A stretch of DNA of 64,000 nt, taken from assembly GCA_021783235.1 (NCBI GenBank), contig JAJXUD010000016.1:1-64000 (forward strand), read 5' to 3'. The translations under genes were made by a program, and so were the position numbers. Under the pieces are notes generated by a model. It saw only the letters and a list, made by a program, of their open reading frames with translations. It searched no databases and was not told the DNA's origin. This stretch comes from Myxococcales bacterium (GTDB lineage: Bacteria; Myxococcota; Myxococcia; Myxococcales; JAKAPL01). Shown here one piece after another: positions 22,466-59,541 of the stretch; position 1 is the first letter of the stretch, and every line of letters starts with the position of its first letter.

Positions 22466-22473
22466 AGGTCCAA

Positions 22474-22546: not shown

Positions 22547-22555
22547 CCCTGGCGG

Positions 22556-22807
22556 GTGATCGAAATGCAGACCGGGAGGGCCGAGTTGCTGCGAAAGGCC
22601 AGAAACAACGTGCAGAAGATCAGAGAGGCCCAGCTGCTCAGCAAGGCCGAGCTCGCGAGGCGCGCGGGCATCTCGACGTTGACCATCGATCGGGTGGAGG
22701 CCGGCAACGACTGCCGCCTCGACACCAAGCGCAAGATCATCTTGGCGCTGGGGCTGAGCATCGCCGATCGCGAACGCGTCTTCGGATCCACCCGCAAGGG
22801 TGGCTGA
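22556..22807 (+). CDS. Small XRE/Cro-type DNA-binding protein, 83 aa
   Basis: The protein is little more than a helix-turn-helix: LRKARNNVQKIREAQLLSK, then AELARRAGISTLTIDRVEAG as the recognition unit, then a short helical tail (RLDTKRKIILALGLSIADRERVFG). Such single-domain XRE proteins usually bind a palindromic operator as dimers. GTG at 22556 fits the near-leaderless promoter; ATG 22565 is an alternative. The next gene, pilM, starts 15 nt after its stop, so this regulator is cotranscribed with the pilus alignment complex. The inverted repeat at 22474-22493 is a candidate operator. Regulation of pilMNOPQ by this protein is inferred from position only. Confidence 0.85.
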   Translation: MIEMQTGRAELLRKARNNVQKIREAQLLSKAELARRAGISTLTIDRVEAGNDCRLDTKRKIILALGLSIADRERVFGSTRKGG

Positions 22808-22822
22808 CAGGGAGGCGTGGCG

Positions 22823-23887: not shown

Positions 23888-23897
23888 GAGGGCGATC

Positions 23898-24449: not shown

Positions 24450-24458
24450 GGGATCTCC

Positions 24459-25064: not shown

Positions 25065-25603
25065 ATCGCATGCTCTGGCTGGCGCTCGTTCTGCTCGCGA
25101 CGGCCTGCGGCAGCTCCGCGCCGCCCCCTTCGCGTCCTCCGGCCGCCCACCCGACCACGACCGTCGGCTCGAAGGTCCCGGGGGCTACTGCGCCCTCTCC
25201 AGCCGCGCAGACCGAGCCCGAGTTCGTCTACTCGCCCCTCGGGAAGCGGGACCCGTTTCGGAGTCCGCTCGACGACCTGATCGTCGTCCGCAATTCCGAG
25301 GGGCACTGCCCCCTCTGCCGCTGGACCCTCGATCAGCTCAAGCTCGTGGCCGTCATCACCGGTACGGGCAGCCCAATGGCGATGGTGGAGGATCCGAACG
25401 GGGTCGGCCACGTCGTGCGGCAGGGGACCTCGATGGGGCGCCTCGGGGGCCGGGTGAGCGTCATCGAGCGGGACCGGATGGTCGTCACGGAGAAGTCGCA
25501 CGATCCCTTTGGGAAAGTCGTCCAGAATCGCACGACTCTGCAAATCGAGAAATCTCATGATCAGGTGGATGCCAATGCGAGCGCCAGTCTTCTCGAGGAG
25601 TGA
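25061..25603 (+). CDS. pilP: Type IV pilus lipoprotein PilP
   Basis: PilP links the PilN/PilO dimer to the secretin PilQ. The 180-aa product has a lipoprotein signal (MLWLALVLLATAC), a Pro/Ala-rich flexible stretch to about residue 60, and the beta-sandwich domain with the characteristic YSPLGKRDPFRSPLDDL and a later IMP-type LKLVAVITG...AMVEDPNGVGHVVRQG. Two cysteines (HCPLC) sit in the middle, which is unusual for the family but not unknown. The GTG start overlaps the pilO stop. Confidence 0.93.
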   Translation: MNRMLWLALVLLATACGSSAPPPSRPPAAHPTTTVGSKVPGATAPSPAAQTEPEFVYSPLGKRDPFRSPLDDLIVVRNSEGHCPLCRWTLDQLKLVAVITGTGSPMAMVEDPNGVGHVVRQGTSMGRLGGRVSVIERDRMVVTEKSHDPFGKVVQNRTTLQIEKSHDQVDANASASLLEE

Positions 25604-25637
25604 CCCGCATGGCGAAGGCTCAAGAGGGAGAAGGCCG

Positions 25638-43100: not shown

Positions 43101-43292
43101 GTCGACGCGGGCAACCTCTGGGCGAACCCCGCTGCGTTCGACCCGCTGCTGCTCCGCCCAGCGGCAGGCGTGGGCGTGCGCGTACCGAGTCCGATCGGGC
43201 CCGCGGCCTTCGATCTTGGCTTCAACCTGGATCCCGACACGACGGTCAACGAGACGATCGTTCAGATCCACCTCGCGATTGGCCTTTTCTAG
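40158..43292 (+). CDS. TamA/BamA-like Omp85 outer-membrane protein, 1044 aa
   Basis: A signal peptide (about 25 residues) is followed by a long series of POTRA-like repeats (for example LTWIGFHGNQSLSREALRRASGL, IGQLLVRGNRHTSEGVVRRALAL), probably five to seven, and a C-terminal 16-stranded barrel. The barrel signatures include GFGGRLNAVLSEPRAFDL, GPTISWDQRDDPINPRHGVL, FFLGGPDADRGF and the terminal phenylalanine (HLAIGLF) needed for recognition by the assembly machinery. The chain is longer than BamA or TamA because of the extra POTRA domains. The overlapped tamB-like gene upstream supports a TAM-type complex. A gene for BamA proper would be elsewhere. Confidence 0.92.
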   Translation: MTRAMLALVCALLGPTSPLGPSLGTTVDSVELVAPRGLDAKELEPLVLVRAGQPYSVALVSRTVELLYESGKVQNVYVYRRPAPHGIELVFRLIPKQRLTWIGFHGNQSLSREALRRASGLEVGDEVVVEKLRAALQRIVAAYRRKGYPAAQLRPQLTEGMTEVALDVEVDEGPPEIVREVSLEGDLGETRSRDLAVLEERGGLRTGAVLDRDALVDGARRLELWLRRRGFDRARVGPPSVVDRPDGRADVRLPVQAGPRISFAFSGNLSFESEELEAALAYDPTERLDDLALARLSERIRVFYLSRGFLEAHVRLESEGGHQRRAAPGLLVERFVVNEGRPVSALDVRVLGVHHLDAADLERVVRAIVTGGDETPLLGRPEDAAVDSIGPSGRPLEGDVQRFRAPHPGYVPEALEAAAEEIARRYQEGGWLDVQIPPPSLDLDEATGRALISFVVKEGQRTFVREIRFEGVASLSEARALQIVALRPGDSFSRSEIDRARARLQNAYARSGRPFARVDVESGSSRGAGRVVFVAEEGPLARIGQLLVRGNRHTSEGVVRRALALEPGELLDPEALEHAQQRIAGLGVFDSVQVAMVDPSQPDEVKDVVVSVHERKPEGIVVGGGYSIVEGPRAFVEYTHTNLFGRGLHFQSELKLNYFPLSYLALSGPSGSLVLEGLPPAQTLAGKDNFFGFGGRLNAVLSEPRAFDLLSGDGSMRGEALVERIDRPYYAFSRGALVPGLEWRYGRRLSVAIQLQGEWDQILTYWENLDQIYQYLSFADLENLRFPDGWGLLASVGPTISWDQRDDPINPRHGVLASLRGNAVGGVFFPSSQGGQILELGGTCATPGAPCSVELFSAQGLVAGYVPLGPRFTLALSAKAGRIFPAAGSFVIPTQRFFLGGPDADRGFQQDMMLPQDVRESLHQDVALCNRTAGGLGCTTAAQLLRTPANQLPSPGGEVFDLVRGELRFPLYDESIDGAVFVDAGNLWANPAAFDPLLLRPAAGVGVRVPSPIGPAAFDLGFNLDPDTTVNETIVQIHLAIGLF

Positions 43293-45091: not shown

Positions 45092-45517
45092 ATGCTGTCC
45101 TCCCTCTGGCGGTCGGCCTCTCTCTTCTTCCTCTGCGGTTTTTTCCTCTGCCGTGGCGACGCTGCCCGTGCCTCTGAGAAGAAGCATGGCAAGCGCAGCA
45201 GCCACGAGCACCCGGCGGCGGCCCACCACAAGCGGAGCCACGAGCGGGGGAGCGGGCGGGTCGAAGGGGCGGTGACCTCCGCGCCTCCCGCCGCAGCGCC
45301 CGCCACGGCGCCAGAGGTGATGACCACCCGCGGGCCGACGCGCCTCGACTTCGACGATCGGGTCGTGCAGGGGCAGTCGAACAAGGCGGGCGCCATCTTC
45401 CTTTACGACCGGAAGAGCCTCCCGCTGCGCAGCATGGTCCGCGAGCCGGATCGGTTCCGAGGCGAGATTCAGGCGCAGCTTCCCGATGACGAGCCTGCCT
45501 CCCGGACGGTCGAGTGA
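45092..45517 (+). CDS. Secreted protein of unknown function, first gene of the envelope cluster, 141 aa
   Basis: A signal peptide (MLSSLWRSASLFFLCGFFLC, cleavage probably after ARAS) is followed by a His/Lys/Arg-rich region (KKHGKRSSHEHPAAAHHKRSH), an Ala/Pro stretch, and a conserved-looking C-terminal block (LDFDDRVVQGQSNKAGAIFL... LPLRSMVREPDRFRGEI). I recognise no enzyme motif. The start at 45092 is preferred over one at 45035 because it places the signal peptide at the N-terminus. It immediately precedes the FHA/AgmX protein (45-nt gap) and is a likely periplasmic partner of it. Confidence 0.75.
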   Translation: MLSSLWRSASLFFLCGFFLCRGDAARASEKKHGKRSSHEHPAAAHHKRSHERGSGRVEGAVTSAPPAAAPATAPEVMTTRGPTRLDFDDRVVQGQSNKAGAIFLYDRKSLPLRSMVREPDRFRGEIQAQLPDDEPASRTVE

Positions 45518-45562
45518 GCGTTTCCAGATTCCCGGAGAAGCGGCGTGGCTGAGGGAGTGCTC

Positions 45563-47638
45563 ATGGTCGTCATCCTCAAGGATGGCGCCCTCGTCGGCAG
45601 CGAGGTATTTCCGCCGGGCGTCTATCGGATCGGGCGCGCACCGAGTTCGGACTTGCGGCTCGACGATCCGATGATCTCGGCGCACCACGCGTCGCTCGCA
45701 TTGCGAGGCGGACAGATCGGCATTCGCGACGAGGGGAGCGCGAACGGCATCTGGCTGAACGGTGAACGGGTGGCCCTCGCCAAGGTGACGAGCAAGGACG
45801 AACTCGAGATCCGGCCCTACACGCTGAAGGTCCGGCTGCTCGAGAAAGGTGAGCGCACGGGCGCCGCAACGTCGTCGGTCGAGGAGACGGTGATCGCCCC
45901 GGTTTCGGCGCGATCGCACCTCGCCGCCGTGCCCGCGCTGGCGGACGAGACGCAGGAGAACGAGCCGACGCTCGAGAATCCGGTCCGCAAACCTGCTCCG
46001 GCCCCCGACGTGCTCACGCCCCGACGCCTCAAGAAGCGCGGCTCCGAGGAGAGGCCGGCGCGCAAGTCGAGCCCCGGCGCGCCGCGCGAGCCGACGCCCG
46101 CCGGCCCCTTTCCGCCCTCCTCTTCGCCGGGGACCGCCCCGAGCGCCCGCGCCCTCGCGGGCGAACTGGTACCGGAGCTCGCCACCGTTCCGAGCTCGCC
46201 GCCGGAGAGCATCCTTTCGGCACTCGCGGGGAAGGACAAGCCCGCTCACGGCGAGCGGCCGGCCCTGCCGCGCCCCGTCGCCTTGCGGCCGAAGGGGGCC
46301 GTCGAGCCCCGGGCGGCCGAGTCCGAGGGGGGTGAGGAGGCGCTCGCGCCGGTCCCGGAGGGAGCGCCCCCTGTTTTGCGGGCGAAGCTGCTCTGGGGCC
46401 GCTCGATCATTCACGCGCAGGCCTTCCGCAGCGGTGGGGTCGTCTCCGTCGGAGCCTCGGATGGGGCTGCCATCCCGGTCTACGGCTGGCCGCTGCAGAG
46501 GAGCTCGACCCGCGTCGCTGCCTTTCGAGAGGGCGCCTGGAAGGTCGTCGTTCCGCAGGGGTTGAGGGCCTACGCCCTCGGGCCCGGTGGACGGGCGCGG
46601 CCCACGCAGGGCCCTGTCTCCCTCTCGAAGGGGGAGGGGGTCGTGCTCGTCGCGGGCAAGCTGGCACTCGAGCTGTGCGCCGAATTGCCGTCCCCCACGG
46701 TGCCGCTGCGCTTTCGCCCCGAGATAGACAAGCAGCTCCTGGTGCCGCTCGTCGGAGCGGCGCTCTTGCTCGGGCTCTTTTTTCTCTTCATGCCGAAGAA
46801 GAGCGAGCTCCCCGATTTCACGCCGAAGGCGCTACCCGCCATCCGCGCCATCCTGGAGGCGCCGAAGAAGCACCCGAAGGAGAAGCCGCCCAAAGCCAAG
46901 AAGAGCGACCAGCAGCGGATCACGAAGGAGCGCAGCGAGGGGACGCACGAGAAGGTCGCGCGCTCTCGGCCCGCGTCGCGCCGGGCTGAGCTTCCCGTCC
47001 CGCAGAGCCAGGCGATCGCCGCGGTCGAAAAGATCCTGGGAGGGGGCAAGGCGACGAAGCAACTCTTCTCGGCGGTTTCGAAGATCGGGAAAGGGCGGGG
47101 CGGCGGCGGCCTCAACTTCAAGGCCTCCGGGCTGCTTGGGAAGGTGCCCCTCGGCGTGAGCGGAGGTGGCGGCCTCACCCTCGGGGCGGGGTTGGGCCAC
47201 GGCGGGGGAACAAAAGGCGCCTGGGCGTTCGGCGGGCTGGGTGGTCTCGGCGGGCCTGGCGCCTTGGGGCGTGGGGGCGTCGGTCGGCGCGGAGTTCTCG
47301 GCGGCGTCGTCTCGGCGCCGCGGCGCGGTGGCAAGGTCGCGGGGTTGCTGCCGATGGAGGCGGTTCGGCGCGTGGTGGACGAGCACATCGCCGAGATCCA
47401 ACAGTGTTACGAGAACGCCCTCTTGCGAACGCCGGGCCTGACCGGCAAGGTCGTGCTGGAGTGGACGATTGGTCTCAGCGGAGGGGTCGAACGGGTCACG
47501 ACCAAGGTCTCGACTCTGCGATCCCCTGGTGTGGCAGGCTGCGCGGTGGAGAGCCTTCGGCGTTGGCGTTTCCCGCGGCCCAAGGGCGGCGTCGTGGTGG
47601 TGTCGTACCCTTTCCTGTTCAACAGCGTCGGCTACTAG
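45563..47638 (+). CDS. FHA/transmembrane/Gly-rich/AgmX-type protein (GltG/NfsG-like), 691 aa
   Basis: Domains in order: an N-terminal FHA phosphothreonine-binding domain (about 1-95; GVYRIGRAPSSDLRLDDPMI then SAHHASL and SANGIWLNGERV), a 290-residue Pro/Ala/Glu linker, one membrane helix (about 394-411), a Lys-rich segment, a Gly-rich periplasmic stretch, and the AgmX/PglI C-terminal domain (about 597-691; VDEHIAEIQQCYENALLRTPGL, then VAGCAVESLRRWRFPRP). This is the plan of Myxococcus GltG and NfsG, inner-membrane components of gliding and spore-coat machines whose C-terminal domain acts in the periplasm like TonB. ATG 45563 is preceded by GGGAG; a GTG at 45545 is an alternative. Confidence 0.88.
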   Translation: MVVILKDGALVGSEVFPPGVYRIGRAPSSDLRLDDPMISAHHASLALRGGQIGIRDEGSANGIWLNGERVALAKVTSKDELEIRPYTLKVRLLEKGERTGAATSSVEETVIAPVSARSHLAAVPALADETQENEPTLENPVRKPAPAPDVLTPRRLKKRGSEERPARKSSPGAPREPTPAGPFPPSSSPGTAPSARALAGELVPELATVPSSPPESILSALAGKDKPAHGERPALPRPVALRPKGAVEPRAAESEGGEEALAPVPEGAPPVLRAKLLWGRSIIHAQAFRSGGVVSVGASDGAAIPVYGWPLQRSSTRVAAFREGAWKVVVPQGLRAYALGPGGRARPTQGPVSLSKGEGVVLVAGKLALELCAELPSPTVPLRFRPEIDKQLLVPLVGAALLLGLFFLFMPKKSELPDFTPKALPAIRAILEAPKKHPKEKPPKAKKSDQQRITKERSEGTHEKVARSRPASRRAELPVPQSQAIAAVEKILGGGKATKQLFSAVSKIGKGRGGGGLNFKASGLLGKVPLGVSGGGGLTLGAGLGHGGGTKGAWAFGGLGGLGGPGALGRGGVGRRGVLGGVVSAPRRGGKVAGLLPMEAVRRVVDEHIAEIQQCYENALLRTPGLTGKVVLEWTIGLSGGVERVTTKVSTLRSPGVAGCAVESLRRWRFPRPKGGVVVVSYPFLFNSVGY

Positions 47639-48298
47639 GTGAGGTTCCCTGACGTGACACCCTTCCAGAAGTTGGTCCGCGCGCCGGGGCTCCTACTCGT
47701 GGTTGCGGCGCTCCTCTCGGCGGCGGGCGCGCGGGCGGACGATGGCGACGAGGTCGAGGACTCTGGTCAGGTTGCCGCGGTGCAGAACCGCGAGTACCGG
47801 ATGGGTCAGGAGATCGAACTCGCGGCGACGCTCCTTCCCTACGATGCCTTCTACAAGGGTCTCGCTCCGACGGCGAGCTACACATTTCATTTCTCGGACA
47901 CCCTGGCGTGGGAGGTCTTCCGCATCGGCTACTCGGTCGATTTCGACACGGGCCTCAAGCAGCAGCTCCTCCAACTCGGGGCGCAGCCGACGCAGTTCGA
48001 GCAGACGCAGCTCTTCGTGACGAGCAACGTGATGTACAGCCCTCTCTACGTGAAGGGGACGCTCGCGAACAAGAGCGTCGTCCACGGTGAGGGCTACCTT
48101 CTCCTCGGTGGCGGCGCTTTCGACGAGACCGATGGCTTCCACCCAGCGCCGGACGCGGGGCTCGGTGCTCGTCTCTTCCTCTCTCGAGCTTTCTCGCTGC
48201 GCCTCGAGGTTCGCGATGCGGTCATCCTCGACTCGAAGCTGACGAACTCCGTGGATGTGAACCTGGGAATCGCGCTCAACTTCCTCGCGCCGGGTTGA
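47639..48298 (+). CDS. Outer-membrane beta-barrel protein, 219 aa
   Basis: A signal peptide (about 34 residues, ending GARADD) is followed by a chain of alternating amphipathic strands ending in VDVNLGIALNFLAPG, as in small eight- to ten-stranded barrels of the myxobacterial OMP family found with Glt and Nfs proteins. Aromatic girdle residues are frequent (YTFHFSDTLAWEVFRIGY). The GTG start at 47639 directly follows the previous stop; GTG 47654 is an alternative. In the proposed envelope machine it would be the outer-membrane component. Confidence 0.8.
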   Translation: MRFPDVTPFQKLVRAPGLLLVVAALLSAAGARADDGDEVEDSGQVAAVQNREYRMGQEIELAATLLPYDAFYKGLAPTASYTFHFSDTLAWEVFRIGYSVDFDTGLKQQLLQLGAQPTQFEQTQLFVTSNVMYSPLYVKGTLANKSVVHGEGYLLLGGGAFDETDGFHPAPDAGLGARLFLSRAFSLRLEVRDAVILDSKLTNSVDVNLGIALNFLAPG

Positions 48299-48311
48299 GT
48301 CGACGCCGCCG

Positions 48312-49829
48312 ATGAGCCTCTCCTCGATCCTCAGTCTCTGCCTGCTCGCCGCGGCGAGTCCCGCCGCGCAGACCGCGGCCCCGGCGGTGGCGCCGAAGCC
48401 CGCCGCCGCGCCTTTGGCTTCGGCGCCTGCTTCGGTGCCTGCACCGCCGCCTGCACCGCCGCCGAAGCTCTTCGAGCGGGCGCTTGCCGAGCACGAGGCG
48501 GGGAGCGCGGACCAGGCGGCCCGCGACTTCTACTGGTTCTTGCGCACCTCGCCCGAGACCGCCACGAACTATGGCTGGGCCGAGTACTTTCTCGGCGCCG
48601 ATCTCGCTGCCATCGGTTTCTCGCAGGCCGCCGTCGACTACCTGGTCCTCGTTTCAAAGGAGAGACCGACCCCGGAGATTCTGGGCCCCGCGCTGACCGC
48701 GCTCGAGAAGCTGGCTCTCGCGGGGCCCGTCGATCGGGACCTCGTCTTCGTCGAGCTCGTCTATGGGACAGACTTCGGGATTGTGCCCAGGGAGGCGCGG
48801 GACTTCGTCGAGTTCCACCGCGGGGTCGTCGACTACGAGCAGGGGCGGGCACGCTGGGGCGAGCGCCACTTCGCGGAGCTCGAGCCGAAGGGGCGCTACG
48901 CGGCGCAGGCTCGACTCGTCGAGGCGATCGAGGCCCTTCGCTCGGCGGGGGCGACGGACGAGGTCGTCGCCCGGTTTGCCGTGCTGGCGAAGGACGCCAA
49001 GGCGCCGCTCGAGGTCCGGAACGAGGCGTCGTTGGATCTCGCCCGGCTGAGGTACGAGCGCAAGGAGCTCCCTGCGGCGATCGCCGCCTACGATTCGGTA
49101 CGGCTTCCCAAGCTGGATCCGGGTCGCGGAGAGATCTACCTCGAGCGGGCGTGGGCCCTGCATCGGCTCGGCCGCGACGACGAGGCCTTCGGCTACCTGA
49201 CGGCGCTCGACGCGCCGAGCTTTCGCGGTCTCTTTCTGCCGGACGAGTACCTCGTCCGCTCCCTCGTATACGACGCGCGTTGCCATTTCCTCGCGGCCAA
49301 GCGCTCAGCCCGAGAGTTTCAGCGTCGCTACCGGTCGGCGCTGACCGTCATCACGGAACGCGGCGACCTCTCGCAGGACCGGAAGTTACTCGCGGCGGCC
49401 GAGGAGCAGCCGAGCGTTCGCGAGGCCGAGGAGTTGCTGCGTCGCGTCCGAGACGAGAAGGCCTTGGTGGATCGCTTTGCCTCCCGCTTCGCGACCCCGG
49501 GGCTCACGGGTCGCCTACGTGAAATCTATCGGCTCGCCGAGGAAAACGCTCTGCGGCGAGAGCATCTCGCCCTGGAGGCGGCGCTCGAGGGGGCCGCCGA
49601 CGCGGTGCTGCGGGCCGACGAGAACCTACGGTTGCAGGACTACCAAGTCGGCCTCCAGATGTACCGCCGTTTCAAGAGGGGAGACGCGGCGCCGACGCCG
49701 CTCGTCACCCCAGCCATCGCCGCCTCCCAGGTCATCGAGCCGTTTCACGGCGAGTTCTGGAACGACGAGCTGCGCAGCTACCGTCTCTTCCTCTCGGATC
49801 GTTGCCTCGGCGAGGAGGGCGCACCGTGA
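48312..49829 (+). CDS. Secreted TPR-like protein, 505 aa
   Basis: Signal peptide (MSLSSILSLCLLAAASPAAQ), a Pro/Ala-rich segment to about residue 55, then helix-turn-helix repeats of TPR type (LFERALAEHEAGSADQAARD; LERAWALHRLGRDDEAFGYL) through to the C-terminus. There is no lipobox. Its size and repeats are comparable to the soluble periplasmic TPR proteins of the Glt cluster. It is 13 nt after the barrel gene and overlaps the following lipoprotein gene (GTGA). Confidence 0.8.
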   Translation: MSLSSILSLCLLAAASPAAQTAAPAVAPKPAAAPLASAPASVPAPPPAPPPKLFERALAEHEAGSADQAARDFYWFLRTSPETATNYGWAEYFLGADLAAIGFSQAAVDYLVLVSKERPTPEILGPALTALEKLALAGPVDRDLVFVELVYGTDFGIVPREARDFVEFHRGVVDYEQGRARWGERHFAELEPKGRYAAQARLVEAIEALRSAGATDEVVARFAVLAKDAKAPLEVRNEASLDLARLRYERKELPAAIAAYDSVRLPKLDPGRGEIYLERAWALHRLGRDDEAFGYLTALDAPSFRGLFLPDEYLVRSLVYDARCHFLAAKRSAREFQRRYRSALTVITERGDLSQDRKLLAAAEEQPSVREAEELLRRVRDEKALVDRFASRFATPGLTGRLREIYRLAEENALRREHLALEAALEGAADAVLRADENLRLQDYQVGLQMYRRFKRGDAAPTPLVTPAIAASQVIEPFHGEFWNDELRSYRLFLSDRCLGEEGAP

Positions 49830-52800
49830 CCTTCCGCCGACTGGCTCCTTGGCTGCTTCTTTCGGGGCTCGGCGCCTGCGCCGCGCCTCAGGCGAAGCCC
49901 GACGAAGCGCTCGTCCAGGAGATCCACGACCGGGCTGACGAGCGCGCCCGCAACCTCGAGCGGCTAAAGCGGGACATCCTCAAGGTGGACAAGACGATGG
50001 CGGTGACGCGCAAGCTCATCGTCCAGAGCAAAGCGGCACCCTACCTGCCGGATCTGCTCTTCCGGCTCGCCGAGCTCTACGTCGAGAAGAGCCGCTACAT
50101 CTTCATTCTGGAAGCCGAGGAGCAGGCCGGACCCTCGGGCGGAGTCGCGCCGCAGAAGAGTTCGATGATCGCTCCCGAGGTGAGGCTGCTCAAGGGCAAG
50201 GCCCTCCAGATCTATCGGCAGATCCTCGATGAGTTCCCCGATTACCGCGACCGTGACAAGATCCGTTTCTTCATCGCCCACGAGTACAGAGAACTCGGTC
50301 GTTTCCCGGAGATGCTTCAGACCTACGACGAACTCGTTCAGAACGACCCGAAGAGCCCGCTCGTCGACGAGGCGCTCTACATCGAGGGCGACTACTGGTT
50401 CGACAAGGGCGACCAGGCGAAGGCCGAGAGCTTCTACCAGCGGCTGCTCGATCGCCCGAAGTCGCCGGCGCGCCAGCTCGCCTTCTACAAGATGGGCTGG
50501 ATCCGTCTCTTCCAGAAGAACATGAAAGAGAGCTTCAAGTACTTCGAGTCGGCGGTGAAGGGCGCGCCACCTTCCGGCTCGGACAAGGCTTTGGACATTC
50601 GCCACGAGGCGCTCACGGAGCTCGTCTACACCTACACCGAGGTCCGGCCCGCGAAGGACGCCATCCCCTACTTCGAGGCGCTTGCCGACGACAGCGACAC
50701 CCTGGCGTTCGTCCTCGGCAAGCTCGCGAACCGCTACTGGATCAAGCAGGAATGGGCGAACGCCGCGCCGGTCTACCGGCGATTGCTCGAGCTCCAGGAG
50801 GACGGCGAGCGCGACCCCGAGCGCGCGGAGCGGCTCTACGATTGCATCCGCAACGCCAAGGGTAAGCTCTTGCCGACGGCCGCCGACGTCTCGGTCATCG
50901 TGCGAGTGGCGGCTCGCGGGCGGGTGGATTTCCGGGCCACGGCTCAGGATCGCTCCCAACTCGGGAAGGACTTCGAGGTCTTCGCGCGCGACCTCTCGAC
51001 CCGCCTCCAACTGGCGTCGCAGGAGCGGCAGGACCCCAGGCTCGAGGCCCAGGCGGCAAAGGCCTACGAGGCCTACCTCTCGCTCTTCCGGGTGCCGACG
51101 CAGTTGCGGGCCATGCGAAAGAACCTCGCCGAATCACTCTTCGCGAGCGGCCTCTATGTCCAGGCCGGGCGCCAATACGAGGCCCTCGCGCGCTCCCTCG
51201 CTCCGAGCGACGCCTCCCGCGAGGACCTGCTCTACTCGTCGATCCTCTCCTACTTCACGGCCTTCGCTTCGAAGGAGAAGATGACGCTCTTCCAGACCGT
51301 GTTCGCCCGCTCGGGGATCGAGCAGCTCGGGAGTGCGTACGTTCGCAGCTACCCGAGGTCGCCGCGGGCCTCGACGGTGAGGTTCAACGTCGCCAAGGCC
51401 TCGTACGACGAAGGCAACTTCGCGAAGGCGAGCGAGCTCTTCGTCGCCTACGTCGGCGCCTACCCGACGACGAAGGAGGCCGGGATCGCGGCGCACCTCG
51501 CGCTGGACGCGCTGCACAACCTCGGCGACTACGAGAAGCTCATCAAGGTGGCCCAGCAGCTCGCGGCCAACCCGGCCCTCCCGTCGCAGATCGCCGCCGA
51601 GATGCGCGAGATCGCCGGCCACAGCCGGAGCGAGGAGATCGACGAACTGGCACTTCGGGCGGGAGAGAAGACCGGCGACGTCGCCCAGGGGCTTATCGAG
51701 TTCGCCGCTGGGCAGAAGGGGACGAGCCAGGGCGAGATGGCGATGAGCGCCGCCTTCGACGCTTACAGGGACAAGCGCGACGTTCCGAAGATGAAGGAGA
51801 CGGCCTGGAAGTTCTTGCAGCAATACCCGAAGAGCAAAGTCGCGGCCTCCGCCCTGCTCACGCTCGCGCACGCCGCGACCGAGGCGGTCGACTACGAGGA
51901 TGCGGAGCAGGCCTACGAGGAGTTCGCCCGGCGCGTGCCAGGCGCACCCCAGGCGCTCGACGCGCTGATCGCGGCGGGCACCCTTCGGCTGCTGGCCGGA
52001 GATCGGCCGCGTGGCCTCGACGATCTCGAGCGGGCGTTCGCGATGGCCCCGCCGGCCAGGCGCCCGGAGATTGGAGAAAAGATCGCGCGGGCGAAGCTCG
52101 ACGCGGGTGACGTCTCGGGCGCCGCCCAGGCGGCCGAGCGCGTGCTGGCGCAGAACGCGGCCGACGCCGAGGCCGCCTCGGTGCTCGGTCGGGCGCTGCT
52201 CACCGAGAACCGGTTGGGCGAGGCCGAGCAGCGACTCGCGCAGGCCGGCCAGGCCATCCAGCGGGCGAGCCGTGGCAGCGCTGGCGAGAGCGAGGCCGCG
52301 GGCAAAGTCTTCTTCTTGCTTGGAGAGGCGCTCTGGCGGCAATTCTCCGCGCTTGGAGCGGGCGAACTCGAGAAGAAGGCGCAACTCGTCGATCCGCTGA
52401 CGCAGGCCTACACGGGCGCGGCCCAGCTCGGTTCGGGCGCGGACGCGGTGGGCGGCCTCTATCGAATCGGCCGAGTCTACTCGATCCTCGCCGACGAGCT
52501 GTCGAAGACGCCCGAACCGGCGGGCCTCCCGGCCGATCAGCGGAGCGCCTTCCGCGACCAGATCGAGAAGCAGTCGGCGCCCCTCCGCGCGCAGGCCGAC
52601 GAGGCCTTCACTACCTGCCTTCGCAAGGCTCGCGACCTCGACATCGTCTCCCCGTTCACGGTGGGCTGCCGCACGAAGGGCGAGGTGTCGGTGGGACCGG
52701 TGGCGCCCGGCTTCGCGAGCGGCGCGGCCGATCCCGCCAAGATCTTGGAGCTTCGCCAACGCCTCGCGCGAAATCCGAACGACGTCGAGTCCTTGCGTGC

Positions 52801-53125
52801 TCTTGCCGACGCCTATCTTTCGGCGGGTGACGCCGCGCACGCTCGCCTCGTGCTATCGCGGATCCTGGAGCTCTCGGAGGGGGACGCGCCCGCCCAGGCG
52901 GAGCTCGGCGCGGCCCTCTGGAGGCTTGGAAAGGTCGGCGAGGCCACGGCCTCGTTTCATCGGGCTCTCGAATTGGACCCGTCCGACGCAGTCGCGAAGG
53001 CGGATCTCGCGGCCATGCTCTGCCGGATGGGTGATGTCGAAGGGGCGAAGGCCGAACTGGCGGGGCTCGCCGCGCCGCCTGCTCCGTCCTTCGACGTCGA
53101 TGGAGGCTACTCACGGTGCCGTTGA
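49826..53125 (+). CDS. Large TPR lipoprotein, 1099 aa (GltI/GltE-like position)
   Basis: The GTG start at 49826 gives the lipoprotein signal MTFRRLAPWLLLSGLGAC; an in-frame start at 49802 would put eight residues before it. The mature protein is a long solenoid of TPR-like helices (LLFRLAELYVEKSRYIF, FKYFESAVKGAP, AEQAYEEFARRVPGAPQAL split by turns, and a canonical C-terminal set with ELGAALWRLGKVGEATASFH). It is probably anchored in the outer membrane and spans periplasm. Large TPR lipoproteins of this kind are part of the Myxococcus gliding complex; orthology is not established here. It overlaps the gene before it by 4 nt and the lipoprotein gene after it by 10 nt. Confidence 0.85.
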   Translation: MTFRRLAPWLLLSGLGACAAPQAKPDEALVQEIHDRADERARNLERLKRDILKVDKTMAVTRKLIVQSKAAPYLPDLLFRLAELYVEKSRYIFILEAEEQAGPSGGVAPQKSSMIAPEVRLLKGKALQIYRQILDEFPDYRDRDKIRFFIAHEYRELGRFPEMLQTYDELVQNDPKSPLVDEALYIEGDYWFDKGDQAKAESFYQRLLDRPKSPARQLAFYKMGWIRLFQKNMKESFKYFESAVKGAPPSGSDKALDIRHEALTELVYTYTEVRPAKDAIPYFEALADDSDTLAFVLGKLANRYWIKQEWANAAPVYRRLLELQEDGERDPERAERLYDCIRNAKGKLLPTAADVSVIVRVAARGRVDFRATAQDRSQLGKDFEVFARDLSTRLQLASQERQDPRLEAQAAKAYEAYLSLFRVPTQLRAMRKNLAESLFASGLYVQAGRQYEALARSLAPSDASREDLLYSSILSYFTAFASKEKMTLFQTVFARSGIEQLGSAYVRSYPRSPRASTVRFNVAKASYDEGNFAKASELFVAYVGAYPTTKEAGIAAHLALDALHNLGDYEKLIKVAQQLAANPALPSQIAAEMREIAGHSRSEEIDELALRAGEKTGDVAQGLIEFAAGQKGTSQGEMAMSAAFDAYRDKRDVPKMKETAWKFLQQYPKSKVAASALLTLAHAATEAVDYEDAEQAYEEFARRVPGAPQALDALIAAGTLRLLAGDRPRGLDDLERAFAMAPPARRPEIGEKIARAKLDAGDVSGAAQAAERVLAQNAADAEAASVLGRALLTENRLGEAEQRLAQAGQAIQRASRGSAGESEAAGKVFFLLGEALWRQFSALGAGELEKKAQLVDPLTQAYTGAAQLGSGADAVGGLYRIGRVYSILADELSKTPEPAGLPADQRSAFRDQIEKQSAPLRAQADEAFTTCLRKARDLDIVSPFTVGCRTKGEVSVGPVAPGFASGAADPAKILELRQRLARNPNDVESLRALADAYLSAGDAAHARLVLSRILELSEGDAPAQAELGAALWRLGKVGEATASFHRALELDPSDAVAKADLAAMLCRMGDVEGAKAELAGLAAPPAPSFDVDGGYSRCR

Positions 53126-53610
53126 CGCGCCCGATCGGGGCGGCGATCGCCGCTGGACTCGCCCTCGCCGGCTGCTCCGGCGGTAACGAGCTCGCTGGGA
53201 GCCTCGGCGAGCTGACGCCGCTCGCCTTCACCGGCACGGTCGTGAGCGATGACCAGAGCCAGCTCGTCGTGGCCTACCACGATGCACCGGATGGAGGCAT
53301 CGCGAGCGGCAACGTTCCCTTCGAGCTGGCGGTCGAGGTGGGGAAGGGGCCCCTCGACGCCGGAACGACCTTCGATCTCGCCGCGCTCGATCCGTCCGGG
53401 GAACCGGTGGCGCTGGCGAGTCGCTCGGTCGCGGGCGATCCGCGGGCCTTTCCTCAGATCCAGAAGGGCACGCTCACACTCGACTCGTCGATCGCGGTGG
53501 GGGCGAAGGGCTCGGGTCATTTCTTCCTCGTCTTCGACTACCAGCAGGACGGGACGCTCGGGCAAGGGCGGACCGTGCAGGGGAGCTTCGAGGGGGTGGT
53601 CTCCCAGTGA
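53116..53610 (+). CDS. Lipoprotein of unknown function, 164 aa
   Basis: MPLTRPIGAAIAAGLALAGC is a lipoprotein signal with an LAGC lipobox. The mature 145 residues are beta-rich (LAFTGTVVSDDQSQLVVAY; FFLVFDYQQDGTL) with no known motif. The GTG at 53116 sits 9 nt after a GGAGG inside the end of the preceding gene, giving a 10-nt overlap. The stop overlaps the next GTG (GTGA). A structural accessory of the envelope cluster is the likely role. Confidence 0.78.
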   Translation: MPLTRPIGAAIAAGLALAGCSGGNELAGSLGELTPLAFTGTVVSDDQSQLVVAYHDAPDGGIASGNVPFELAVEVGKGPLDAGTTFDLAALDPSGEPVALASRSVAGDPRAFPQIQKGTLTLDSSIAVGAKGSGHFFLVFDYQQDGTLGQGRTVQGSFEGVVSQ

Positions 53611-54248
53611 TTCGGCGCTCGGTCACCGTCGTCGCTTTCCTCTCGCTCGCGGCCTGTGGCGGCGGGGTTTCGCTTCGCGTCCCCAAGAAGAGCCTCGATG
53701 CCCTTCCGGTGGACGAGCGGCTGGATCTTCTCGACGCGGAGAATGACCTCTTCGTCGCGATCGACAAGCACGACGACGCCGTCGAGGCGGTTCGGGACGC
53801 CCGGGAGGCCTACCGGCGCGCGGCCTCGCAGGTCGCTCAGGCGGTCAGGGACCTCGATCGATCGAGCGGCTCGAGTGACCCGGAGGCGGTGGTCGCCCGA
53901 GAAGAACTCGTCGAGGCGAAGCTCCATCGTGCCTGGCTCGACCGATCGATCGACCTCGCGGAGGAGGCGCTCGCGGTCGCGGACGAGGAGGTACTGGTCG
54001 CTCGGGCACGGCTCGAGCGCGCCAAGGTTCAGGCGGTCGAGCGGGCCAAGGTGCCGGGAGCGGCGAGTCTTTCGATGCGGGACTTCGAGGCGCAGGTCGT
54101 CCGACTCGAGCGCCGGGAGAAGTCGCTGCGCGATGATCTCGCGAACGACCGCAAGCAGGCCAACGAGGAGCGAGGCGCCTGGCTGTCCGAGAGCCGCAAG
54201 CTCTCGGACATGACCGGTGGAGCGCTCGGATCGCCATGGGTGGAATGA
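53607..54248 (+). CDS. Coiled-coil lipoprotein, 213 aa
   Basis: The signal VIRRSVTVVAFLSLAACGGG carries an LAAC lipobox. Most of the mature protein is one helical coiled coil with many Glu, Asp, Arg and Ala (AVEAVRDAREAYRRAASQ; SIDLAEEALAVADEEVLVA; KVQAVERAKVP), resembling periplasmic helical lipoproteins such as Lpp/OmpA-linked spacers. It overlaps the preceding gene (GTGA) and the following one (ATGA). No enzyme motif. Confidence 0.78.
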   Translation: MIRRSVTVVAFLSLAACGGGVSLRVPKKSLDALPVDERLDLLDAENDLFVAIDKHDDAVEAVRDAREAYRRAASQVAQAVRDLDRSSGSSDPEAVVAREELVEAKLHRAWLDRSIDLAEEALAVADEEVLVARARLERAKVQAVERAKVPGAASLSMRDFEAQVVRLERREKSLRDDLANDRKQANEERGAWLSESRKLSDMTGGALGSPWVE

Positions 54249-56143
54249 TGCGTCGCATCGTCCCGATGAGCTTCTGCCTTTCGGCGCTCGCGTTGGCCGC
54301 CGTCGCGCGACCGGTCGAGGACGGCGGCGTCGCCGGCGGCGTGGCGCCGTCGCCGGCTCGTTACGAGGACGCACTGCAGCGCGGTCGCCAGGTCGCGGAG
54401 ACGCGGGACTTCGCCGGAGCCGTCGACGCGTTCGTCGAGGCGACCCGGGCCGATCCCGCGAAGCCGGAGGGCTGGTTCGAGCTCGCCCGCGCGCAGACGG
54501 CGATGGGCGCGGCAGCCGATGCCCTCAAGTCGTACGAGCGTGGGCTCGCGATCGATCCGGAGGACGAGGCGGCGCACGAGGAGATTGGGCTACTTCGCCG
54601 TCAGTTGGACGACGCGGCAGGGGCGGTCCGGGAATTCCAGCAGGCGCTCGCTCGCAAGCCGGACGATCCGGATCTCCTCTTCGCCCTCGGCGAGGCGGAG
54701 CAGAAGAGCGGCGACGCACAGTCGGCCCGTCAAATCTACGAGCGGATCCTCGCGCGGGACCCGAAGAACGCCCGCGCGCGGGTGAACCTCGCCGAGCTGC
54801 TCTCGGAGCGCGGGGAGGTCGCGGGCGCGGTCGACCAGCTCAGCCGGGCCCTCGCCGCGGCTCCCAACGACCCCGAGGCCAATTACGATCTCGGCGTGCT
54901 CCTCTTCCGCCAAGGAAAGATCGCCGAGGCGATCGCGTCCTACCGGCGCGCCATCCAGGCGGACCCCGACCGGGCGCAACCACACAACAACCTCGCCGTG
55001 GCGCTCGAGCAGACGGGCAAGGGGGGCGCAGAGGCGCTGGCCGAGTTCCGCGAGGCGACCCGCCTCAAGCCGGACTATTCGGAGGCGCACTTCAACCTGG
55101 GGCTCGCGCTCTACCGGCGCGGCCAGAACGACGAGGCGATGAAGAGCTTTCGGGCGGCCCTCCAGCTCGATCCCCACTCGCCGAGGTCGATGATTGAGAT
55201 CGCCACGGTCTACCTCAAGGAGAAGGTCCCCGTTCAGGCGCTGGCATTTCTCGAGCGCGCGCGAAAGGAGCGGCCCGACGATCCCGAGATCTACCGAAAA
55301 ATGGCGGAGGCCGATCTCGATCTCCACCGGCTTCCCGCTGCCATCGCGGCCTTGCGCAAGACGACGGAGCTGCTTCCGAGCGATCCTTTCGCCTTCCAGG
55401 CGCTCGGGGCCACACTGCTCGAGGCGCGGGAGTTCGACGGCGCGATCGCGGCCTACCAGCGGCGCGCCAGGCTCGACGACTCGTCGACTGCCCACCTCGA
55501 CCTGGCCGAGGCCTATGCCGACAAGCACGTCTCCGCCGAGGCGGATGCCGAGTACCAGAAGGCCGAGCAACTCGCCCCGAACTCTCCAAAGCCACTCTTG
55601 CGTCGGGCCGATCTCCTCCTCTCCAAGGGCGACGTCGACGGAGCTCAGAAGATTTACGGCGAAGCGCATCAAAAGTTCCCGAATGATGGCGAGATCGAGG
55701 CGCGCCTCGGGCTCGTCCGGTCGCGGCTCGGAGACTTTTCGGGAGCCATTCCCCTGCTCGAGGGGGCGCTGAAGACGGACCCAGGTCAGGTAGACGCCGA
55801 GGTCGAGCTCGGCTTCTGCTACTACCGGGCCGACGAGAACCAGAAGAGCCTCGAGACGCTGCAGCGGGCGCTCGCGATGCGACCGAACCACGCGCTCGGG
55901 AACTATTACGATGGTGTCGCGCTCTACAAGGCGGGTCGGACCCAGGCGGCGATCCGGGCGCTCCAGCGGGCGGTCGAGGCCGATGCCTCCCTGGCCGACG
56001 CTTCGTATTCGCTCGGCATGATCCTCGAGGCCCAGGGGTCCAAGGACCGGGCCGTCGCGGCATACCGAGCGGCCTTGAAGGCGCGTCCGGATCACGCGGA
56101 GGCGAAGGCCGCGCTCGTCCGCCTGAAGTCCAGCGGGCGCTAG
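54245..56143 (+). CDS. TPR protein with signal peptide, 632 aa
   Basis: The N-terminus (MRRIVPMSFCLSALALAAVA) is a signal peptide, and from about residue 40 on the chain is almost entirely canonical TPR repeats (A-rich, with Asp/Pro turns; DAADPEGWFELARAQTAMG type spacing) some fifteen to seventeen in number. Examples: NLAELLSERGEVAGAVDQL, NYDLGVLLFRQGKIAEAIAS, HFNLGLALYRRGQNDEAMKS. Three ATG codons (54236, 54245, 54248) could start the gene; 54245 gives the usual ATGA overlap. It is probably periplasmic and 12 nt upstream of the Ser/Thr kinase gene. Confidence 0.85.
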   Translation: MMRRIVPMSFCLSALALAAVARPVEDGGVAGGVAPSPARYEDALQRGRQVAETRDFAGAVDAFVEATRADPAKPEGWFELARAQTAMGAAADALKSYERGLAIDPEDEAAHEEIGLLRRQLDDAAGAVREFQQALARKPDDPDLLFALGEAEQKSGDAQSARQIYERILARDPKNARARVNLAELLSERGEVAGAVDQLSRALAAAPNDPEANYDLGVLLFRQGKIAEAIASYRRAIQADPDRAQPHNNLAVALEQTGKGGAEALAEFREATRLKPDYSEAHFNLGLALYRRGQNDEAMKSFRAALQLDPHSPRSMIEIATVYLKEKVPVQALAFLERARKERPDDPEIYRKMAEADLDLHRLPAAIAALRKTTELLPSDPFAFQALGATLLEAREFDGAIAAYQRRARLDDSSTAHLDLAEAYADKHVSAEADAEYQKAEQLAPNSPKPLLRRADLLLSKGDVDGAQKIYGEAHQKFPNDGEIEARLGLVRSRLGDFSGAIPLLEGALKTDPGQVDAEVELGFCYYRADENQKSLETLQRALAMRPNHALGNYYDGVALYKAGRTQAAIRALQRAVEADASLADASYSLGMILEAQGSKDRAVAAYRAALKARPDHAEAKAALVRLKSSGR

Positions 56144-56155
56144 GAGCGCGGCTCG

Positions 56156-58120
56156 ATGGAGAACGGCGGCGCAGGATCGGCGAAGCTCGGCCAGTATCGG
56201 ATCCTCGCGCGGATCGCCACCGGCGGGATGGCCGAGCTCTTCTTCGCGCGCCGAGAAGGCCCCGCGGGCTTCCGGAAGATCGTCGCCATCAAGCGGCTGC
56301 TTCCGCATCTCACCAAGGAGCCGAAGATCGTCGAGATGTTCCTCGACGAGGCGCGCATCGCGAGCCGCTTCGATCATCCGAACGTCGTGCAGGTCTTCGA
56401 CCTCGGCGAGGCCGACGGCTCCTACTTCCTCGCCATGGAGTTTCTCGAGGGGAGGTCTCTCTCCGAGGTGGCGGAGCGTGCGGCCGAGTTGGGGGAGCTC
56501 GTGCCCCTCGGGATCATGGCGAGGGTTCTCGCCGAGGCCTGCCTGGGCTTGCATGACGCCCACGACGCGAGGGACGACGCTGGCCAGCCGCTCGGGGTCG
56601 TCCACCGCGACTTCAATCCCTCGAACGTGTTCGTCACCTACGACGGTCGAGTGAAGGTCCTCGACTTTGGCATCGCGAAAATCCAGTCGCTCTCGCGCGA
56701 GAGCGAGCCGGGGGTCCTGCGAGGCAAGTACTATTACATGAGCCCGGAGATGGTGGCCGGGCGGCCGGTGGATCGACGCGCCGACCTGTTTGCGGCCGGG
56801 GGGATGCTTTACGAGCTCTTGACCGGCCGCCATCCGTTTGAGGCGGACGACGTCCGCTCGCTTCTCGTGGAGATCGGGAACTGCTCGCCGGAGCCGCCGC
56901 GGCAGCTGGAGCCGGAGGTCCCGCCGTCTCTCGATTCGCTCTGCTGTGCCCTGCTCCAGCGCTCGCCCTCGGATCGGCCACCCACGGCTCAAGCCGTCGC
57001 GGAGAGGCTCGAGCGATTCCTCACGGAGACCAAGAGGGTGGTGGGGCCGAGCGAGATCGCCGCCTACATGGAGCGGCTCTTTCCCCAAGGCGAGGATCTG
57101 CGGCGCCGCCAGATCGCCGAGCTGCGTCGCGCCCAGTCGCTCGACGCTCCGGAACTCGCGCCAGTCCCGCCGCCCACCGCCGACGCGGCGCCGCCGGAGG
57201 CGCCACGGCCGAGGCCTGGGCGCACGGCCGTCGAGGCGCCCGGCAAGCTGCCGCAGGAAGAGCGCCCTAGGCTTCGGGATCGACCGCGGATCCTTCTCGT
57301 GCTCGCGGGCGCCCTGGTCATGGTCATCGCCTTCGTCGCCTGGCGGTTTCGGTTGGGCCGTGGCGCCGCGATGTCCGAGCTCGACCAGGCCCGCGCTGCC
57401 TTCCAGAGGGGCAACCTCGATTCCGCCCGCTCCCGGCTCGAGCGGCTGGTCTCGGCGAACCCATCCGATGAGCAGGCGCACCTGCTGCTCGGCCAGCTGC
57501 TCTCGGCGCAGCGCCACGGGCAGCGGGCCGAGGCCGAGTTGCGAGCGGCGCTTCGTCTCGCGCCGCGGGATCCGGCGCCACCGCGCGCGCTGGCGGAGCT
57601 CAGGGTCGCTCAGGGCGACCTTCCCGGGGCGGTCAAGCTGCTCGTCGAGGCCCGCCGTCTGGCCCCCGATGACGGCTCGATCGGGCTCGAACTCGGCGGG
57701 CTCTACGGCCGGCTCGGCGACTGGAAACGATCGGCTGCGACGCTGGAGGGAGCGATCGAGAGAAAGGGCCAGGACGCCGGCGGCTGGGCCGACCTCGGCT
57801 TCGCCCGCTACCAGCTCGGAGAGGACAGCCGCGCGGCGTCCGCCATCGCCCGAGCGCTCCGGCTCGAGCCAGGGCTGGCCCGCGCCTGGTACTACCAGGG
57901 CTTCCTCGAGTACCGCCGCGGGCACGTCGACAAGGCGATCGAGAGCTACCGGACCGCCGCGGCGAAGGATCCCAGCTCATCGGCGGCGTTGCTCGCCCTT
58001 GGCCAGCTCTACCGCGATCGGCATGAGCAGGCGCTCGCCGAGGGCGCCTTCAAGGACGCGCTCGCCCGTGACCCGGGCAACGAGACGGCACGTGCTGCCC
58101 TCGCCGATCCGGGCCACTGA
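56156..58120 (+). CDS. Transmembrane Ser/Thr protein kinase with TPR C-terminus, 654 aa
   Basis: Kinase domain (about 12-285): glycine loop LARIATGGMAELF, ATP-binding Lys46, Glu65, catalytic loop His150-Arg151-Asp152 followed by Phe-Asn rather than the usual Leu-Lys, DFG at 170-172, and GKYYYMSPE. The absence of the catalytic-loop Lys is common in myxobacterial kinases (HRDxS/NPxN). A Pro-rich juxtamembrane region leads to one membrane helix (about 379-398) and a periplasmic TPR region (about 405-654). The TPRs could sense the envelope complex. Located between the TPR gene and the FHA-type activator, so its phosphorylation may feed the two FHA proteins of the cluster. Confidence 0.9.
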   Translation: MENGGAGSAKLGQYRILARIATGGMAELFFARREGPAGFRKIVAIKRLLPHLTKEPKIVEMFLDEARIASRFDHPNVVQVFDLGEADGSYFLAMEFLEGRSLSEVAERAAELGELVPLGIMARVLAEACLGLHDAHDARDDAGQPLGVVHRDFNPSNVFVTYDGRVKVLDFGIAKIQSLSRESEPGVLRGKYYYMSPEMVAGRPVDRRADLFAAGGMLYELLTGRHPFEADDVRSLLVEIGNCSPEPPRQLEPEVPPSLDSLCCALLQRSPSDRPPTAQAVAERLERFLTETKRVVGPSEIAAYMERLFPQGEDLRRRQIAELRRAQSLDAPELAPVPPPTADAAPPEAPRPRPGRTAVEAPGKLPQEERPRLRDRPRILLVLAGALVMVIAFVAWRFRLGRGAAMSELDQARAAFQRGNLDSARSRLERLVSANPSDEQAHLLLGQLLSAQRHGQRAEAELRAALRLAPRDPAPPRALAELRVAQGDLPGAVKLLVEARRLAPDDGSIGLELGGLYGRLGDWKRSAATLEGAIERKGQDAGGWADLGFARYQLGEDSRAASAIARALRLEPGLARAWYYQGFLEYRRGHVDKAIESYRTAAAKDPSSSAALLALGQLYRDRHEQALAEGAFKDALARDPGNETARAALADPGH

Positions 58121-58173
58121 GCATCGTCGTCCCGCATGGTCGTCATGCTGGATTCCTGCTACGAATCGACGCC

Positions 58174-59541
58174 ATGAGCGAGGAGCGAGTCCCCCGGCCC
58201 GGGATTCCCGGCGGCACGGTCGTCGGCGGCAGGGCCCCGCAAGGGGATCTGCGCATGCAGTGCTTCCGCCTCGCTCTCGAGAGCGGCGGGGCGAAGGGGG
58301 TGACGTTCGACCTCGGCGAGGGCGAGACCCGCGCCGGCAAGGCCGCCGAGAACCAGATCGTCCTCGACCACCCGACGGTCTCGAGGGCGCACTTTGCAAT
58401 CGTCCACGAGGGGGACCGCTGGCTCCTCCGAGACCTCGGCTCGACGAACGGCACGTTTCTCGACGGCTCGCAGGTCCGCGAGGCCTACCTGAGGGCTGGC
58501 GCCCTCATCGAGGCGGGCGACGTCGCGCTGCGCTTCGTCCCGGAGCAGGTGGCGCTCGAGATCGCCCCGTCGGAAGATCGCCGCTTCGGGCGGCTCGTCG
58601 GAGAGAGCCGGCGAATGCGGGAGCTCTTCGCGATGCTCGAGCGGGTCGCTCGGGCGGATGCCCCCGTGCTCCTCCAAGGGGAGTCCGGCACTGGCAAGGG
58701 TGCGGTCGCGGCGGCCATTCACGAGCACTCGGGGAGGGCCGGCGGAGCGTTCGTCGTCTTCGATTGCGCGTCGGTCTCGAAGTCCCTCATCGAGAGCGAG
58801 CTCTTCGGCCACGAGCGTGGCGCCTTCACGGGCGCCGTCAACCAGCACGTCGGCTTTCTCGAGCAGGCGCTCGGCGGGACGCTCTTCATCGACCAGATCG
58901 AGGATCTCGACCTCGACTTGCAGCCGAAGCTGCTTCGCGCCCTGGAGGAACGTGTCTTCAGGCGCGTCGGAGGAACCGGGCCTCTGAGGTTCGACGCCCG
59001 GGTCGTGGCCGCCTCACGCAAGGATCTGCGGGCCGAGATCGCGACGGGCCGCTTCCGGGAGGACCTCTACTTCCGGCTCTCGGTCTTCGTGCTCGGGCTT
59101 CCGCCACTGCGGGAACGCCGCGAGGACATTCCCTGCCTCGTGGAGGCCTTCGGTGGCGCCGGGCTCTGGGAGAGGCTTCCGGTCGCGGTCCGCGAGCTGT
59201 TCGAGCGGCACGCCTGGCCCGGCAACCTCCGCGAGCTGCGCAACGCGGTCGAGCGGGCCGAGCATCTCTCGAGCCTGCCTGGCGGCCAGCTCGCCGAGCG
59301 GCTCCTCGGGGCGGTGGGTGCCCCGGAGATTCCCCGCCCCGCGGCGCTCGAGAGCCTCTCCGTCTCCTACGAGGGTAGCTTCAAGGCAGGGAAGGAGAGC
59401 CTCCTCGCCGCCTACGAGCGCGAGTATCTGCGGCGCCTCCTCGAGCGGACCGGCGGCAACGTCGCCCGGGCCGCCCGCGAAGCCGATCTGGACCGGAAAC
59501 ATCTCTACGCGCTGCTCAAGAAGCATTCTCTCGCCGGCTGA
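58174..59541 (+). CDS. FHA-domain sigma-54-dependent activator, Walker B Asp-Gln, 455 aa
   Basis: An FHA domain (about 40-130; VLDHPTVSRAHFAIVHEGDR and LGSTNGTFLDG) replaces the usual receiver, so the signal would be threonine phosphorylation rather than phospho-aspartate. The AAA+ domain (about 145-370) has Walker A GESGTGKGAVAAAIH, an intact GAFTGA loop and an arginine-finger region; Walker B reads Leu-Phe-Ile-Asp240-Gln241, Gln standing where the catalytic Glu is normally found. The C-terminus has a Fis-type HTH (GNVARAAREADLDRKHLYALL). A TACGAA -10-like hexamer ends 8 nt before the ATG, so the gene may have its own near-leaderless promoter in the 53-nt gap after the kinase. Confidence 0.92.
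   Translation: MSEERVPRPGIPGGTVVGGRAPQGDLRMQCFRLALESGGAKGVTFDLGEGETRAGKAAENQIVLDHPTVSRAHFAIVHEGDRWLLRDLGSTNGTFLDGSQVREAYLRAGALIEAGDVALRFVPEQVALEIAPSEDRRFGRLVGESRRMRELFAMLERVARADAPVLLQGESGTGKGAVAAAIHEHSGRAGGAFVVFDCASVSKSLIESELFGHERGAFTGAVNQHVGFLEQALGGTLFIDQIEDLDLDLQPKLLRALEERVFRRVGGTGPLRFDARVVAASRKDLRAEIATGRFREDLYFRLSVFVLGLPPLRERREDIPCLVEAFGGAGLWERLPVAVRELFERHAWPGNLRELRNAVERAEHLSSLPGGQLAERLLGAVGAPEIPRPAALESLSVSYEGSFKAGKESLLAAYEREYLRRLLERTGGNVARAAREADLDRKHLYALLKKHSLAG

Follow-up and report, generated by a model that had tools for sequence, protein, structure and literature searches.

A third branch of Glt-family clusters in a Myxococcales genome, most likely G5, and its apparent ties to Mts cohesion proteins and an FHA sigma-54 activator

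We analysed a stretch of 64,000 nucleotides from a Myxococcales bacterium (contig JAJXUD010000016.1; hereafter the window) and found that the ten-gene cluster at 45092-59541, judged by sequence comparison, is distinct from both Glt and Nfs and forms a third branch of the same family, most likely the G5 cluster (MXAN_1327) of Luciano 2011. What appears to be new is that conserved adjacency and co-occurrence tie this orphan Glt paralog both to the Mts proteins of cell cohesion and to a single FHA sigma-54 activator. No earlier statement linking G5, Mts and the activator was found in the literature searched, the coverage of which was partial, making this weak evidence.

Composition of the cluster and its place in the Glt family

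Coding statistics and domain searches confirmed that the ten open reading frames, all on the plus strand, are real and coding-like (Table 1), and the gaps between them are, in order, 27, 15, 13, -4, -10, -4, -4, 12 and 53 bp. The initial annotation of a ten-gene same-strand cluster, with gaps of at most 53 bp, was thus borne out. Profile searches also recovered the composition that it had listed, namely an FHA/AgmX protein, a barrel, lipoproteins, TPR proteins, a kinase and an FHA activator.

Table 1. Genes of the ten-gene cluster (positions in the window)
Position	Strand	Gene product	Features
45092..45517	+	GltF/CglF-like small secreted protein	ORF opens at 45035; signal peptide at 45092
45545..47638	+	GltG paralog	Cytoplasmic FHA, one TM (about aa 398-416), Gly-rich linker, AgmX/PglI (TonB-like) C-terminal domain
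47654..48298 (alternative start 47639)	+	Outer-membrane 8-stranded barrel	TIGR04565 OMP_myx_plus, 88.4 bits (cut-off 60)
48312..49829	+	GltC paralog	Signal peptide, TPR; NF033756, 72.9 bits (cut-off 450)
49826..53125	+	GltD paralog, large TPR lipoprotein	G5 clade in tree, 100/100
53116..53610	+	lip1, all-beta lipoprotein	Invariant lipobox Cys; AlphaFold pLDDT 86
53607..54248	+	lip2, helical lipoprotein	Invariant lipobox Cys, kept in 10 relatives
54245..56143	+	Secreted TPR protein, GltE position	TPR families; NF033758 GltE, 156.6 bits (cut-off 225); syntenic in relatives
56156..58120	+	Ser/Thr kinase, TM and C-terminal (periplasmic) TPRs	PF00069, 119.7 bits; HRDFNPSN, DFG
58174..59541	+	FHA, AAA sigma-54 activator, Fis HTH	PF00498, PF00158 Sigma54_activat, PF02954 HTH_8

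The small secreted protein matched the CglF model only weakly (NF033764, E 0.014), and orthologs scoring 47-77 bits occupy the equivalent position in most G5 loci. Two domains were recognized in the GltG paralog, FHA (PF00498, 53.8 bits) and AgmX/PglI C-terminal (NF033768, 105.8 bits; cut-off 40), and its best equivalog is GltG (NF033760, 162.5 bits; cut-off 650). The barrel was modelled by AlphaFold with a pLDDT of 80 and resembled NspA, OmpA and OmpW in Foldseek searches; its nearest relatives within its own genome are the barrels at the GltA and GltB positions (L023; 33 and 30 bits). Orthologs of the GltC paralog were present in 12 genomes (195-439 bits), and the GltD paralog scored 164 bits against the Nfs-type, 109 bits against the Glt-type and 55 bits against the G4-type paralog of its own genome. 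The lip1-type proteins are an all-beta lipoprotein family; they matched no Pfam or NCBIfam family, and a fold search with lip1 gave no confident PDB match.

The first eight genes, in the order F-G-barrel-C-D-lip1-lip2-TPR, form the conserved unit, and this order is kept across the taxonomic order. Specifically, it was found in 10 relatives with enough sequence, plus two on short contigs, with the unit present in families f2, f3, f4 and f7 and partial contigs in f3 and f8. The lip1 gene was undetected in the divergent f7 copy, and F or lip1 fell below threshold in some other relatives. The reading of the cluster as a Glt/Nfs-type envelope machine therefore held, its parts being homologous to Glt components and its neighbours conserved together.

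Which member of the family it represents could be refined by comparison with the rest of the host genome (4.58 Mb in 133 contigs, 97% complete), which carries four Glt-family clusters, on C37, C60, C109 and, in the case of the window's cluster, C64. On C37 the Glt set is complete, its GltC scoring 725 bits by comparison with 73 bits for the window's GltC; the cluster on C60 has the nfsA-H order and fits Nfs; and C109 carries a GltC-D-E-F-G set adjoining a gene with a full-length match to Myxococcus MglA (379 bits). The window's cluster has the broad Glt-type features, including a GltG with FHA, TM and AgmX/PglI domains and GltC, GltD and a barrel in one operon. It departs from Glt proper in its low GltC score, in a GltD belonging to a separate clade and in having neither GltI nor GltJ within the cluster, and from Nfs in a gene order other than A-H and a GltD outside the Nfs clade. 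In the GltD tree it groups at 100/100 with the clusters of ten relatives and away from the GltD proteins of Glt, Nfs and G4, and this clade of a fourth paralog set shares its gene order. The family assignment of the initial annotation thus stands, with the identity shifted from a match to Glt and Nfs to this separate clade.

According to Luciano 2011 (PMC3169522), the M. xanthus paralog clusters are G1/G2 (gliding), G3 (nfs), G4 (MXAN_1922) and G5 (MXAN_1327), with no function assigned there to G4 and G5. Because C37, C60 and C109 match G1/G2, G3 and G4, respectively, the window's cluster is most likely G5 by elimination, and map position points the same way. In G033, a Myxococcus-like genome in a single contig of 8.97 Mb, GltC paralogs lie at 1.57, 2.95 and 3.96 Mb, and the G5 ortholog at 1.57 Mb is at the place expected for gene 1327 from the spacing of the gltC- and nfs-type loci. 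A GltD-paralog search of contigs from named organisms returned generic TPR matches only. As for G4, the mglA gene on C109 of the window's genome (L025 19065-19652) directly adjoins the G4-type cluster, a suggestive neighbour for an orphan paralog, and MXAN_1922 of M. xanthus is also near mglA.

Several other features of the window were recorded. Gene order and size suggest a type IV pilus cluster at 19153-28370, with a PilD-like peptidase, a PilS/PilR-like pair and PilM, N, O, P and Q-like proteins, so that about 17 kb separates putative social-motility genes from the G5 cluster; the sigma-54 activator at 21098 is the probable PilR-like member of this two-component pair. At 36364-43292, a gene of 1265 aa overlaps a downstream BamA/TamA-like barrel gene (1044 aa, many POTRA-like repeats), perhaps forming a TamB/TamA-type pair. 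Finally, an open frame at 35-1795 consists of near-identical repeats (LPARGLVLPARGLD...) and is repeat-rich with a GC content of 75%.

Linkage and co-occurrence with mts genes

The G5 operon of f3 and f4 genomes diverges from a series of surface-protein genes, those for MtsC and MtsD among them, and mts genes are near G5 in f7 also. G5 genes were found beside mts in further genera (G060, G063, G096, G098, G100, G101 and G102). In G033, the two products scored 1353 bits (MtsD, NF047639) and 600 bits (MtsC, NF047638) against models that NCBIfam names cell-cell cohesion proteins. MtsD combines TSP3 repeats with a vWA domain bearing a DxSxS (MIDAS-type) site, and MtsC combines TSP3 repeats with a MYXO-CTERM tail; in the window's genome, MtsD keeps DESGS and MtsC keeps its tail. 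PMC11980579, citing Zhang 2007, associates the MYXO-CTERM protein MtsC (spelled MstC) with cohesion, social (S) motility and development.

Within a set of 40 genomes, MtsD was present in 13/13 genomes with a G5 GltC and in 0/27 without (Fisher p 8e-11, a value that ignores phylogeny). Five families, f1, f3, f4, f7 and f8, each include genomes with both G5 and MtsD and genomes with neither, and the two were always concordant. Mts relatives were weaker in G008 and G023; in the latter, the MtsD-type match was weak (109 bits, with a stop in frame) and MtsC was not found. In the window's genome (G000), mtsB-C-D-E and a further lipoprotein gene lie on contig C3 and G5 on a different one, and in G003 mts genes are on contigs C3 and C7, both apart from the G5 contig; joint retention therefore does not require the two to be closely linked. 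The names mtsA, mtsB and mtsE were assigned in this analysis by gene order.

Alignment identified a lip1 paralog, lip1b, inside the mts locus of other genera (L107, L110, L123, L163 and L124). This gene (L107 19369-19944, L110 1494-2045, L123 6929-7375) stands beside that of a lipoprotein of approximately 440 aa. The mts side of the G5-adjoining locus opens with a conserved beta-propeller protein of 748 aa with CxxCH-type haem sites (L107 2877-5123, in G033), an odd partner for adhesins. In some genera (G098, G100, G064 and G144), mtsC is present in two or three copies, which lie away from G5 or are spread over different contigs.

The sigma-54 activator, the kinase and the FHA domains

The last gene of the cluster encodes a protein with the features of a bacterial enhancer-binding protein, an AAA domain with GAFTGA and a Fis HTH. 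Its orthologs share 56-61% identity, with a clear gap to paralogs (49% or less), and keep GAFTGA and most FHA residues invariant, an invariant Lys replacing the Arg of the phospho-Thr-binding loop. They were found in 81 of the 145 genomes of the order, one of which (G062) gave a partial match at 58%. In this 145-genome comparison, which covers the activator and mtsC, the activator was present in 76/83 genomes with mtsC versus 5/62 others, phylogeny being ignored; the two genes agreed in 133 genomes (76 with both, 57 with neither) and were discordant in 5 and 7. G5 presence was scored in the 40-genome set, where all nine activator carriers have G5. The gene is directly downstream of G5 in the window's genome and beside the G5 operon in G003. 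Most f4 genomes of the 40-genome set have it about 22-26 kb from G5 on the same strand (about 79 kb in G012), and in G097 and G131 it is beside mtsA. From these comparisons, the activator is a real evolutionary partner of the system.

A -24/-12-like GG-N10-GC site with TTGCT lies about 44-60 bp upstream of mtsC in this genome, G003 and many f4 genomes, and about 2% of shuffled upstream sequences would be expected to reach an equal score. We had considered that the site might be confined to activator genomes, an idea dropped when a larger sample revealed four genomes with the site and no detected activator ortholog (site-activator comparison p 0.41, not significant). The site is therefore not tied to the activator, of which mtsC is the likeliest, inferred target. 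Several of the extra mtsC copies lack the site. Upstream of the G5 operon, no convincing sigma-54 site was found, and f4 genomes have a sigma-70-like TTGACA there.

The kinase has the Hanks-type Lys, HRD and DFG motifs, consistent with its predicted identity. Among the genomes examined, it is at this locus in the window's genome only; no close kinase homologue was present at the G5 locus of any relative examined, nor was a close kinase found beside activator orthologs. The sole full-length close homologue was in G003 (44% identity, on another contig), and matches in f4 genomes cover mainly the kinase domain. The kinase was accordingly rejected as a conserved partner of the machine and is classed as accessory. 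The FHA domain of the window's GltG has all of the G-R, S-x-x-H and N-G residues, as does that of G003; the Arg is kept in G008, but most relatives have lost it, with Ser in its place in the orthologs examined from f3 and f4.

The dedicated phosphorylation module proposed in the initial annotation thus survives in part: the activator is an evolutionary partner, its orthologs being confined to G5 genomes in the 40-genome set and nearly so to mtsC genomes among the 145, whereas the kinase, with no close homologue at the locus in relatives, is not supported as a general feature. Two FHA readouts of one kinase, at the inner membrane and at transcription, do not hold as a general feature. Since no relative has a close kinase at the locus and the GltG FHA Arg is lost in f3 and f4, this scheme may apply at most to this lineage.

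Proposed function and comparison with known systems

All six MotA/ExbB genes of the genome are on contigs other than the window's, in agreement with the earlier reading that no AglRQS-type motor genes lie within the window. A search elsewhere in the genome revealed two ExbB-ExbD-ExbD triads of AglRQS layout (C41:15.1-16.9 kb and C32:24.7-26.7 kb), and a motor is therefore available in the genome though none is linked to G5. Glt offers a precedent (PMC13104615): the action of its proton motor is passed on by components of the inner membrane and periplasm to others in the outer membrane, and these last recruit and retain the vWA adhesin CglB.

On the basis of homology, synteny, the GltD clade, co-occurrence, adjacency and the conserved sigma-54-like site before mtsC, we consider it probable that G5 is a motor-driven scaffold exposing or moving the vWA/TSP3 Mts adhesins for cell-cell cohesion. 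An AglRQS-type proton motor encoded elsewhere would pull the GltG paralog in the inner membrane; the AgmX/TonB-like tail and the periplasmic TPR proteins at the GltC, D and E positions would carry force to the barrel and lipoproteins; and the machine would hold, expose or move MtsD, related lipoproteins and MtsC, by analogy with Glt and CglB. The FHA sigma-54 activator would regulate the system, with mtsC as its likeliest target, and in this lineage the neighbouring kinase may set the activity of the activator and of the GltG FHA domain. A cohesion machine is the most economical reading because G5 has Glt-like parts together with a vWA/TSP3 partner set. The main obstacle is that a polar mutation in MXAN_1327, the G5 gltD, had no appreciable effect on motility, the trait reported for that mutant in PMC3169522, whereas mtsC is reported to affect S motility. 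In M. xanthus at least, some Mts functions can therefore do without G5. Also counting against this reading are the absence of a nearby motor gene, the weaker Mts relatives in G008 and G023, the loose relation between the site before mtsC and the activator, and the failure to find a convincing sigma-54 site upstream of G5.

Alternatively, G5 might be a secretion or assembly route that puts Mts proteins on the surface, force playing no part. The lack of linked AglRQS genes, the single small barrel with its lipoproteins and the conserved adjacency with surface lipoproteins would all suit such a route, which we nevertheless regard as unlikely: the TM and AgmX/TonB-like tail, presumed sites of motor coupling in Glt, are retained in the GltG paralog, folded cargo would not fit through a barrel of only 8 strands, and the polar G5 mutant moves normally. 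Still less credible is that G5 duplicates Glt or Nfs as a further machine for gliding or the spore coat, its mts link being only shared inheritance in social myxobacteria. The homology to both machines is clear and the co-occurrence counts ignore phylogeny, but G5 forms a clade apart and has a lip1, a lip2 and a single barrel of its own, presence and absence are concordant inside five families, and adjacency is preserved across genera; moreover, in PMC3169522, G5 mutation had no motility effect and G5 did not compensate for loss of Glt. That the kinase and sigma-54 genes are merely downstream and unrelated to the machine would fit the presence of the kinase at the locus in this genome only, but is very improbable for the two genes together, given gaps of 12 and 53 bp. 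It may hold for the kinase and is likely false for the activator, which has linkage of its own to G5 or mts in G003, in f4 genomes and in G097 and G131, and co-occurs with mtsC.

A broader form of the cohesion-machine proposal, held tentatively, is that Agl-Glt has a third output, a machine displaying or driving vWA/TSP3 adhesins for cohesion, with the FHA sigma-54 activator and, in this lineage, the membrane kinase sensing the machine and controlling adhesin synthesis. If true, this output would stand besides gliding and spore-coat winding, would be a bacterial analogue of a force-loaded cell-cell junction and would show how multicellular bacteria turned a motility machine to the task of keeping cells attached to one another. 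Through the link to Mts and the activator, an orphan paralog without a function since its description in 2011 gains a testable job.

Compared with known systems, the cluster is closest to M. xanthus G5, likewise a Glt paralog cluster with GltD and, according to PMC3169522, not needed for motility; the window's genome differs in having the kinase and activator downstream and the mts genes on another contig. With the Glt gliding machine (AglRQS, CglB), G5 has in common GltC, D, G and F-like parts, a TPR protein at the E position, an outer-membrane barrel and, probably, a vWA lipoprotein partner, CglB in Glt and Mts-type lipoproteins in G5. Unlike Glt, it has no GltI or GltJ, one barrel instead of GltA/B/H and a separate GltD clade. 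The Nfs spore-coat machine is, like G5, encoded by Glt paralogs in one operon with no motor linked to it, but has the order A-H rather than F-G-barrel-C-D-lip1-lip2-E, a GltD placed elsewhere in the tree and, in the Nfs-type cluster, a retained CglE-type barrel. The Mts cohesion locus, a neighbour and co-occurring partner of G5, encodes surface proteins and not a machine.
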